Positions 8,100-8,996 of a DNA stretch of 64,000 nucleotides are shown here, piece by piece; position 1 is the first letter of the stretch; each line of letters begins with the position of its first letter. The notes under the pieces were generated by a model, which saw nothing but the letters and a program-made list of their open reading frames with translations, had not been told where the DNA came from and searched no databases. Origin of the DNA: Micromonospora sp. FIMYZ51 (GTDB lineage: Bacteria > Actinomycetota > Actinomycetes > Mycobacteriales > Micromonosporaceae). A program made the translations under genes and the position numbers. The DNA is taken from the NCBI RefSeq assembly GCF_038246755.1, contig NZ_CP134706.1:1116001-1180000 (forward strand). Reading direction: 5' to 3'.

Positions 8100-8996
8100 A
8101 TGTCCACAAACGGTAGGCCAATTATCGCTTTTATGAGCGACCTCGGCACGACCGACGATTCTGTCGCACAGTGCAAGGGGCTCATGCTGAGCATCTGCCC
8201 GAGCGTGACCGTCGTCGACGTGTGTCACTCGATGACTCCGTGGGATGTCGAAGAAGGCGCCCGCTACATCGTCGACCTGCCGCGCTTCTTCCCTGAGGGC
8301 ACCGTCTTCGCCACGACGACGTACCCGGCCACCGGTACCACCACCCGGTCGGTGGCGATCCGCATCAAGCAGGCAGCCCGGGGCGGCGCGCGGGGCCAGT
8401 GGGCCGGGTCGGGCGAGGGCTTCGTCCGGGCCGAGGGCTCCTACATCTACATCGCGCCCAACAACGGCCTGCTCACCACCGTGATCGACGAGCACGGGTA
8501 CCTCGAGGCGTACGAGGTAAGCAACACCAAGGTCATTCCCGCCAACCCGGAGCCGACCTTCTACAGCCGCGAGATGGTGGCGATTCCGGCGGCGCACCTG
8601 GCCGCTGGGTTCCCGCTCAACGAGGTTGGTCGGCCGTTGGCTGACCACGAGATCGTCCGATTCTCCCGGCCGCGCCCGAGCACCGAGTCGGATGGTGTGC
8701 TCAGTGGCGAGGTGACCGCGATCGACCACCCGTTCGGAAACGTCTGGACCAACATCCACCGTACCGACCTGGAGAAGGCCGGCATCCGTTACTCGACCCA
8801 GCTCAAGGTGCTGCTGGACAACACGCTCACCTTCGACCTGCCGCTCTCGCCGACCTTCGCCGACGCCGGTTCGGTGGGCGACCCGGTCATCTACATCAAC
8901 AGCCGGGGTTACCTCTCGTTGGCGCGCAACGCCGCGTCGCTGGCGTACCCCTACAACTTCAAGGCCGGCATGGCGGTCTCCGTGCGGAAGGCCTGA
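8100..8996 (+). CDS. flA: Fluorinase, 5'-fluoro-5'-deoxyadenosine synthase
   Basis: 298 aa; ATG at 8100 preceded by GGAAGGA. Joins fluoride to C5' of SAM, giving 5'-fluoro-5'-deoxyadenosine and L-methionine. The N-terminal PIIAFMSDLGTTDDSVAQCKG and long later stretches match Streptomyces cattleya FlA as I remember it. Active-site equivalents are present: Asp14 (D16), Trp48 (W50), Tyr75 (Y77), Thr78 (T80), Phe154 and Ser156 (S158, fluoride ligand), Asp209, Phe212, Asn214, Ser268 and Arg269. The roughly 22-residue loop that marks fluorinases and is missing from the chlorinase SalL and DUF62 hydrolases is present (about residues 90-111, GARGQWAGSGEGF). An in-frame start at 7887 would add 71 unrelated residues and is rejected. 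Confidence 0.97.
   Translation: MSTNGRPIIAFMSDLGTTDDSVAQCKGLMLSICPSVTVVDVCHSMTPWDVEEGARYIVDLPRFFPEGTVFATTTYPATGTTTRSVAIRIKQAARGGARGQWAGSGEGFVRAEGSYIYIAPNNGLLTTVIDEHGYLEAYEVSNTKVIPANPEPTFYSREMVAIPAAHLAAGFPLNEVGRPLADHEIVRFSRPRPSTESDGVLSGEVTAIDHPFGNVWTNIHRTDLEKAGIRYSTQLKVLLDNTLTFDLPLSPTFADAGSVGDPVIYINSRGYLSLARNAASLAYPYNFKAGMAVSVRKA

Follow-up and report, generated by a model that had tools for sequence, protein, structure and literature searches.

Nucleocidin has been called one of five characterised fluorine-containing natural products (PMC8694150), and 4-fluorothreonine was, as of 2020, the sole fluorinated amino acid found in nature (PMC7162832). In Streptomyces sp. MA37, the fdrA–D genes lie remote from the fl cluster, SalQ is lacking, and 5-fluoro-4-hydroxy-2-oxopentanoate (5-FHPA) is taken as an end product (PMC5947533). 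Deletion of fdrA or fdrB abolishes the 19F signal proposed to be 5-FHPA, and FdrB is the proposed maker of this compound; FdrA and FdrB were expressed as inclusion bodies (PMC7408626). FdrC, the only one of the three MA37 enzymes FdrA–C reported as assayed (PMC5947533, PMC7408626), oxidises 5-fluoro-5-deoxyribose with NAD+ in vitro and also hydrolyses the lactone (PMC5947533). Knocking out salO had no evident consequence (PMC5947533). Here we describe a cluster of ~40 kb (5519–45077) around a fluorinase gene, flA (8100–8996), in a 64,000-nucleotide stretch of Micromonospora sp. FIMYZ51, hereafter the window, which corresponds to positions 1116001–1180000 of C1, the single contig of a 7.05-Mb genome (G000). 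Unlike MA37, the window holds flA and its fdr-type genes in a single cluster. It adds a methyltransferase, a FAH-family (de)hydratase (FAA), an HpcH aldolase, a second isoleucyl-tRNA synthetase (IleRS) and a nonribosomal peptide synthetase (NRPS), none of which appears in the published comment on the fdr surroundings (PMC5947533). On balance, though not by much, we think it probable that the cluster makes an isoleucine-like amino acid that is fluorinated and C-methylated, or a small peptide containing it, and that the producer is protected by an IleRS with a reshaped editing pocket.

The sequence evidence is strong that 8100–8996 encodes a true fluorinase, predicted to convert S-adenosylmethionine (SAM) and fluoride to 5'-fluoro-5'-deoxyadenosine. 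The protein scores 590.2 bits against the NCBIfam model TIGR04507, 'adenosyl-fluoride synthase' (cut-off 400). Its best phmmer match in the Protein Data Bank (PDB) is S. cattleya FlA (1rqp, E=1e-162, 544 bits), together with other fluorinase entries, whereas the chlorinase-type entries trail at 170–182 bits. Among 30 aligned rows, the 21 fluorinase rows, including the window protein, all have the fluorinase-only loop, and the three SalL-type and six DUF62-type rows lack it. Among what we take to be the 20 active-site positions of FlA, 19 are identical between the window protein and the S. cattleya row P0039; at the remaining one, position 158, the window protein has Ser as in 1rqp, P0039 being a Gly158 variant. 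S. cattleya FlA is 81% identical to the window protein and shares with it the compared active-site positions, the loop and the RNAA motif (residues 276–279 in the window), which is a fluorinase marker (PMC12871659).

In a maximum-likelihood tree of the 30 rows, the window protein falls within the fluorinase clade (21 rows, support 95/94). It pairs with the protein of a second genome of the family, G298 (97% identity), and then with two Actinoplanes-type fluorinases (99/99), each 86% identical to it, from which the window and G298 proteins form a separate branch. The DUF62 branches are long and the deep part of the tree is unsure, with the fluorinase/SalL split starred. SalL-type chlorinases have no loop and carry Gly at 158. 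The loop, the Ser at 158 and the tree placement rule out a SalL-type chlorinase or a DUF62 hydrolase. The original prediction of a genuine fluorinase, with the loop at about residues 90–111, Ser156 as the equivalent of Ser158, fitting active-site residues and a place outside SalL and DUF62, is thus borne out at the level of sequence, including by phylogeny. Only one further PF01887 gene lies in the source genome, at C1:1702833, and a tblastn search with flA does not match it at 1e-10.

Fluorinases had also been called few. This is dated for the databases, where 194 protein clusters match the window FlA at E<=1e-60, and holds within the family, where four of 354 genomes have a fluorinase-grade match (86–100%; G000, G298, G032 and G034). 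The host was correctly recognised as Micromonosporaceae-like, and G032, of the same family, carries the Paractinoplanes deccanensis fluorinase. Two further family genomes, G303 and G149, have SalL-like matches, and in the tree both fall with SalL. Scanning 84,980 species genomes for a pattern brought up at least 12 loci of fluorinase grade (67–86%), and FlA searches in the families of Actinoallomurus iriomotensis (G007; 2/341 genomes positive) and Amycolatopsis bartoniae (G002; 3/390) added one locus, G844. A plasmid collection returned eight records for FlA, all distant (25–28%). Some fluorinases in public records are misnamed 'DNA-directed RNA polymerase subunit delta' or 'acetolactate synthase' (P0005, P0032, P0094), and such wrong names partly hide the family. 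A. iriomotensis has a second, SalL-type gene (C16:238833–239609; 42%, with SalL in the tree); the 14 kb adjoining this gene and the 9 kb adjoining that of G149 contain no fdr or IleRS match.

Homologues of the phosphatase, the short-chain dehydrogenase (SDR) and the IlvD-type dehydratase all stand beside flA in the window. In G303, a genome of the same genus which we take to be Salinispora tropica, the carrier of the sal genes, a SalL-like gene (36%) adjoins proteins 62, 65, 58 and 61% identical to the window IlvD, SDR, YmdB and cyclase proteins; the window thus resembles the sal cluster in its SalN/H/M/O-type genes (58–65%), with FlA in place of SalL. The MA37 fdr genes comprise the same phosphoesterase, dehydratase, SDR, cyclase and LuxR types, a likeness drawn from their description and from sal homology, not from MA37 sequences. 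The FdrA/SalN-, FdrC/SalM- and FdrB/SalH-type enzymes should lead to 5-FHPA: 7046–7831 is predicted to encode the 5-fluoro-5-deoxyribose-1-phosphate phosphatase, 17307–18089 the 5-fluoro-5-deoxyribose dehydrogenase and 10525–12225 the 5-fluororibonate dehydratase. No crotonyl-CoA carboxylase/reductase (SalG), SalQ or polyketide synthase was found among the 40 window open reading frames (ORFs; 84–49530) scanned with Pfam and NCBIfam. The fl-like genes of the original prediction are present, with an FlH-like antiporter adjoining flA and FlB-, FlI- and FlK-like genes nearby (Table 1), but its picture of a plain fl cluster is incomplete: the locus is mostly an fdr/sal-type route joined to a methyltransferase, an aldolase, an NRPS and the second IleRS, a content that suggests a product other than fluoroacetate or 4-fluorothreonine.

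We compared 16 fluorinase loci by tblastn of the window proteins: the window, the 12 pattern-scan loci (L004–L015), G298, G034 and G844, using stretches of 39–60 kb for 13 of the other 15, 21 kb for L015 and 14–20 kb for L008/G005. YmdB, IlvD and SDR occur together in seven, namely the window, G298, G844 (in the A. bartoniae family and taken as Amycolatopsis sp. 195334CR), A. iriomotensis (G007), a Streptosporangiales metagenome-assembled genome (MAG; G010), Solihabitans fulvus (L015) and A. bartoniae. The methyltransferase is likewise present in seven, the same set without A. bartoniae and with a Chloroflexi MAG (G008), which has the SDR and no YmdB or IlvD match. The second IleRS occurs in five (window, G298, G844, G007 and G010), all of which also hold fdrABC, the methyltransferase, FAA and HpcH. 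These five span three families: that of the window, that of A. bartoniae (G844) and one shared by G007 and G010. The genes are arranged differently in G007/G010, G844 and the window, a pattern that speaks for selection on linkage. Another seven loci (G001, G034, G003, G004, L008/G005, G006 and G009) belong to the older fl type and lack fdr, and in the proteobacterial MAG G011 flA stands alone. The over-long hpcH query overlaps the S-adenosylhomocysteine hydrolase gene in another frame, and its 104-residue match in G005, which lies on that gene, was not counted.

The nearest PDB entries of the methyltransferase are the 2-ketoarginine methyltransferase 8r4z, an 8ftr-type methyltransferase and MppJ (4kib), the best score being only 81 bits. 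We take 8ftr to be SgvM, and its chain positions 244 and 296 align with His 292 and 345 of the window ORF. The metal ligands of SgvM are H244 and H296 (PMC10502145). Both putative metal histidines are kept in all six full-length cluster copies aligned, the cut Solihabitans copy being left out. The window enzyme thus shares the two metal histidines of the alpha-keto-acid beta-C-methyltransferases SgvM, MppJ and MrsA, with weak overall similarity, and is probably an enzyme of this kind acting on C3. Methylation of 5-FHPA at C3 would give the keto acid skeleton of isoleucine, with fluorine on C5 and a hydroxyl on C4.

FAA is MhpD-like (PDB 1sv6/2wqt, E 3e-47; TIGR03220 243 bits, below its cut-off of 409). 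Since the MhpD-like and HpcH families handle 4-hydroxy-2-oxo acids, both support such an intermediate, and they would equally feed a route to fluoroacetaldehyde. In the Chloroflexi MAG (L052, 10720–13279), a fluorinase locus outside Actinobacteria, a DmpG-type aldolase and an acetaldehyde dehydrogenase stand between the methyltransferase and FAA; this is a different ending of the same route.

The source genome has another IleRS, of the HYGH type, at C1:5687360 (40% to the cluster IleRS in the search, 37% in the alignment), which rules out the cluster enzyme as the sole copy. The cluster IleRS has GVHH and KMSKS motifs, and its best PDB matches are the solved IleRS2 entries. Resistance by the GVHH motif alone was considered and rejected, as 23 of 24 non-cluster rows have it, and attention therefore moved to the editing pocket. 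Here the window copy, which shares its motifs with IleRS2 of the GXHH type, departs from them: the equivalents of E. coli T243, N250 and H333 are L, S and S (codons 23545, 23566 and 23854), and D342 is kept. The N250 position is the one we take to be correct, placed by spacing. Across a 29-copy alignment, T243 is replaced by L or M and N250 by S or A in all five cluster copies, and T241, T242 and D342 are kept in every copy; H333 is S in the window, G298 and G844. All 24 non-cluster copies have T243, N250, H333 and D342. The five cluster copies form one clade (100/100). In the E. coli enzyme, for which positions T241, T243, T246, H333 and D342 are described, editing of Ile-tRNA is prevented chiefly by His333; H333A raises Ile-tRNA hydrolysis ~20-fold and H333G raises it further, T241 and D342 take part in hydrolysis, and T243R/D342A is inactive in post-transfer editing (PMC9023258). 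Clearing a fluorinated isoleucine mimic from tRNA-Ile would call for a pocket that is open to side chains the size of isoleucine and retains the hydrolytic residues.

Among the best 120 IleRS matches in the databases, 44 are changed at both T243 and N250 (28 with Ser and 16 with His at H333); 74 of the remaining 76 are unchanged and two carry one change. At least nine of the 44 altered enzymes, as against none of the 76 others, lie on a contig equal in length to that of a fluorinase among those listed (Fisher p=7e-5, relatedness ignored). Equal length is a proxy for a shared contig: direct reading covered two of the nine (G844 and G010), three more have one organism name for both proteins, and the fluorinase side covered 120 of the 194 clusters. 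By the same proxy, a Solihabitans fulvus IleRS of 62% apparently lies on the contig of its fluorinase (length 108,867 for both). Of 11 fluorinase genomes searched whole, G007 and G010 have an IleRS of the altered type (59%); the other nine have none (best <=50%), nor does G034 (48%).

Two genomes of the A. iriomotensis family, G619 and G624, found among its 341 genomes and having no fluorinase match, carry an IleRS of the altered kind (68–69% to P0162), with WTTM, A at 250 and H at 333 in the editing site. It lies in a cassette of a branched-chain aminotransferase (BCAT), cupin, zinc-type/quinone-oxidoreductase-like dehydrogenase (ADH), LysR, IleRS and a small MFS transporter (G619, L129, 1073–9088; G624, L132; 84–97% alike). 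A BCAT beside the altered IleRS points to a branched-chain amino acid. In these cassettes, the IleRS module may have served or resisted a non-fluorinated isoleucine mimic, or it may protect a non-producer. Among the fluorinase loci, G010 has an equivalog-grade BCAT (477 bits, cut-off 307) ~20 bp from its FdrA-type gene, one of two class-IV aminotransferases in that MAG, and A. bartoniae has a BCAT-like gene below the cut-off (228 vs 279) 12 kb from flA. The BCAT of G619 gave no tblastn match in the stretches of the window, G298, G844, G007, G008 or L015. The source genome has 22 PF00155 aminotransferases, none of them in the window.

These observations can be arranged into a route. FlA would convert SAM and fluoride to 5'-fluoro-5'-deoxyadenosine, the MTAP-like phosphorylase would release 5-fluoro-5-deoxyribose-1-phosphate, and the FdrA/SalN-, FdrC/SalM- and FdrB/SalH-type enzymes, judged by homology, would carry this to 5-FHPA. 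The methyltransferase may then act at C3 to give 5-fluoro-4-hydroxy-3-methyl-2-oxopentanoate, with the isoleucine skeleton. More speculatively, the MhpD-like enzyme could eliminate the hydroxyl on C4, and reduction of the resulting double bond by a dehydrogenase would then lead towards 5-fluoroisoleucine; alternatively, the product would keep the 4-hydroxyl. A housekeeping BCAT would add the amino group, the NRPS would assemble the product, and the MFS transporter and other exporters would export it. Faulty intermediates would be disposed of by the HpcH aldolase and FlK, and the second IleRS would either discriminate against the mimic or hydrolyse mimic-tRNA. SAM synthetase, S-adenosylhomocysteine hydrolase, the PfkB kinase and adenine phosphoribosyltransferase (APRT) would recycle SAM and adenine. 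In its specific form, the proposal is 5-fluoro(-4-hydroxy)isoleucine made from the ribose carbons of SAM by fdr and C3-methylation, built into an NRPS peptide in some strains, with an IleRS whose opened pocket (H333, T243 and N250 lost) hydrolyses the mimic from tRNA-Ile; this we hold only tentatively, at somewhat less than an even chance.

Several points weigh against an isoleucine mimic guarded by the second IleRS. The five IleRS loci are not independent, as G298 nearly duplicates the window and G007 and G010 share family and order. G007 and G010 keep H333 and have no close cupin or ADH match in their clusters, and G844 has no LysR match. The changes at T243 and N250 could instead mean lost editing. 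IleRS2 copies at 47–54% occur in 117 of 354 family genomes besides the window and G298, and all 18 aligned family copies have GXHH, so a GXHH IleRS2 is not remarkable in itself. The altered IleRS in two fluorinase-free genomes need not be tied to fluorine. Conversely, the Chloroflexi MAG has the methyltransferase and FAA and no such IleRS (best 48%, with an ordinary editing site; its contig ends 9 kb past flA), and its DmpG aldolase and acetaldehyde dehydrogenase suggest cleavage, not methyl-branched synthesis. No class I/II or class IV aminotransferase is found in the window, and the 40 ORFs scanned include no aminotransferase at all. The code of the NRPS adenylation domain, read by eye at what we take to be the code positions, is D-A-F-F-F-S-P-V-F-K, to which no specificity is assignable. 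No paper on the cluster or its product was found in a search that left most subscription journals outside.

The aldolase raises an alternative in which HpcH cleaves 5-FHPA to pyruvate and fluoroacetaldehyde, which goes on to fluoroacetate, with FlK as protection and the methyltransferase and IleRS serving otherwise. HpcH/HpaI aldolases act on 4-hydroxy-2-oxo acids, FlK occurs in the window, G298, G007, G010 and the fl-type locus G006, and the Chloroflexi MAG has its DmpG aldolase and acetaldehyde dehydrogenase between the methyltransferase and FAA. FlK is not seen, however, in 60 kb around the flA of G844, an isomerase/aldolase path to fluoroacetaldehyde is already known (PMC5947533), and the linkage of methyltransferase, FAA and IleRS (5/5 IleRS loci) and the BCAT genes would be left unexplained; we consider this route unlikely. 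The IleRS might, for its part, confer resistance to an unrelated inhibitor, mupirocin-like or an NRPS peptide, with the fluorinase making a separate metabolite or decorating the inhibitor. IleRS2 enzymes of the GXHH type show hyper-resistance to mupirocin (PMC10485003), in G844 the NRPS comes after the IleRS block, and the altered IleRS occurs without a fluorinase. What marks the cluster copies, though, is the editing pocket, which reads the tRNA-bound side chain, and not the shared GXHH, and G007 and G010 have the IleRS with no NRPS match in 57–60 kb, so that we regard an unrelated inhibitor as quite unlikely.

The FlA, FlB-, FlH-, FlI- and FlK-like genes and the fdrABC homologues would also fit canonical fl metabolism, with the S. 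cattleya end products fluoroacetate and 4-fluorothreonine, or with 5-FHPA as an end product, as in MA37. This is improbable in our judgement: the 40 ORFs scanned gave no transaldolase- or aldehyde-dehydrogenase-type Pfam match, although such genes could lie elsewhere, and the extra conserved genes would have no explanation. Least probable by far is a salinosporamide-type use, in which a fluoroethylmalonyl-CoA extender is supplied to a polyketide. Such a use could draw on the SalH, SalM, SalN and SalO homologues, but the same scan found no crotonyl-CoA carboxylase/reductase, SalQ-like oxidoreductase or polyketide synthase, and the crotonyl-CoA carboxylase/reductase model, with its cut-off of 379, gives the ADH at 26480 a score of 68.

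The fluorinase family was known already; what is new is the combination of fdr/sal, methyltransferase and IleRS, read in five genomes and deduced for more, and no paper joining a fluorinase and an isoleucyl-tRNA synthetase was found in a search without most subscription journals. If the isoleucine-like product is right, it would be a second, hydrophobic natural fluorinated amino acid, spread over several genera and with IleRS as its named target. Other gains would be a C-methyltransferase and an aldolase that act on fluorinated keto acids, as well as a natural experiment in re-aimed tRNA-synthetase editing, and further uses of fluorine in biology would become directly testable.

G844 repeats the window block IleRS–cupin–ADH–acyl-CoA dehydrogenase family protein (acad), followed directly by NRPS, condensation domain, MFS transporter, thioesterase and AraC; at least in these lineages, the window NRPS is thus part of the cluster. 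The window NRPS and free condensation domain are 48 and 43% identical to the NRPS genes directly 3' of acad in G844. The three ABC transporter parts are found together only in the window and G298. An APRT homologue occurs in 13 and an FlH-like antiporter homologue in 14 of the 16 loci, the window counted in both; APRT would serve adenine salvage after phosphorolysis, and the PfkB kinase (12332–13315) is perhaps a nucleoside/ribose salvage kinase. The LuxR-type regulator has a 40–70% homologue in 11 other fluorinase loci. No Rfam family of any kind, the fluoride riboswitch included, matched the window at gathering score. The G+C content of the cluster is 66.6%, against 72.0% for 46405–64000, and the lower value would fit acquisition from outside.

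Table 1. Genes of the fluorinase cluster in the window. Percentages are identities to the protein in the genome named; paired bit scores are score/cut-off.
Feature	Position	Strand	Matches and remarks
APRT	5519..6244	-	PRK02304.1-5 187 bits, cut-off 125
Cyclase-family protein, FdrD/SalO-type	6201..7049	-	PF04199; 61% to protein in SalO place of G303
YmdB-type phosphoesterase, FdrA/SalN-type	7046..7831	-	PF13277; 58% to SalN-place protein of G303
Fluorinase (flA)	8100..8996	+	298 codons from ATG 8100; stop ends 8996
CPA2 cation:proton antiporter, FlH-like	9073..10467	+	PF00999; TIGR00932 below its cut-off
IlvD/EDD-type dehydratase, FdrB/SalH-type	10525..12225	+	PF00920+PF24877; PRK00911 756/644 bits; 62% to SalH-place protein of G303
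PfkB kinase	12332..13315	-	PF00294; no NCBIfam model over cut-off
SAM synthetase	13332..14657	-	PF00438/02772/02773
SAM methyltransferase, alpha-keto-acid beta-carbon type (probable)	14710..15882	+	Nearest PDB 8r4z, 8ftr, 4kib; start codon not fixed
Small conserved ORF directly 5' of the (de)hydratase gene	15879..16442	+	86% in G298
FAH-family 2-oxopent-4-enoate (de)hydratase, MhpD-like (FAA)	16439..17287	+	PF01557; start estimated within ORF 16226-17287
SDR, FdrC/SalM-type	17307..18089	+	PF13561; 65% to SalM-place protein of G303
HpcH/HpaI aldolase, 4-hydroxy-2-oxo acid aldolase type	18145..19014	-	PF03328 116.8 bits; PDB YfaU 2vws E 1e-38; start is the ATG ahead of the domain at 19014, ORF extends to 19413
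S-adenosylhomocysteine hydrolase, FlI-like	19095..20582	-	TIGR00936 625/498 bits
MTAP-type nucleoside phosphorylase, FlB-like	20781..21674	+	TIGR01694 303.5/274.9 bits; start estimated, ORF from 20457
EamA-family transporter	21816..22811	+	PF00892; TIGR00950 81 bits, below cut-off 230
Second IleRS	22714..26073	+	PF00133; GVHH motif; real start perhaps 22828
Cupin	26070..26483	+	PF07883; adjoins IleRS in G298, G844, G619, G624
ADH	26480..27445	+	PF00107; adjoins IleRS in G298, G844, G619, G624
Acad	27312..28583	+	PF00441; 65% in G844
AraC-type regulator	28626..29447	+	PF12833; 53% in G844
FlK-type fluoroacetyl-CoA thioesterase homologue	29551..29988	-	PF22636 108.4/27 bits
TetR			Between the FlK and M20 peptidase genes
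M20 peptidase/aminoacylase-like	30735..32090	-	PF01546; 47-48% in G010, G007 clusters
ABC transporter (substrate-binding, ATPase, permease)	32146..35069	-	PF04392, PF00005, PF02653; membership uncertain
LysR regulator	35207..36310	-	PF03466; 60% in G007/G010 clusters, 55% in G619/G624 cassettes
NRPS, C-A-PCP-PCP (condensation, adenylation, two peptidyl carrier domains)	36319-39909	+	
Free condensation domain	39921-41339	+	
MFS transporter	41336-42817	+	51% in G844
Thioesterase	~42939-43808	+	40% in G844
LuxR-type response regulator, FdrE/SalRII-like	44286..45077	-	PF00196+PF00072

Some minor features accompany these genes. The ORF at 15879–16442 belongs to no family; it is 34% identical to the ORF before FAA in G844, which is in turn 34% identical to that of the Chloroflexi MAG, a diverged protein in the same placement in both. 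ORF 18089–18760 (+) was rejected as a gene because it is the antisense of the HpcH aldolase gene. The first condensation domain of the NRPS has a degenerate HHxxxDG motif (HR..MDE), and the separate domain has HHIICDG. IleRS of two types are patchily distributed within Micromonosporaceae, 117 of 354 genomes having IleRS2, the other copy in the window genome being HYGH. Finally, 84–4059 (+) encodes a 921-aa SbcC-like Walker B protein and, after it, a JetD-type Wadjet protein (PF09983, PF11795); this looks like the end of an anti-plasmid system of the Wadjet type, lying just upstream of the cluster.

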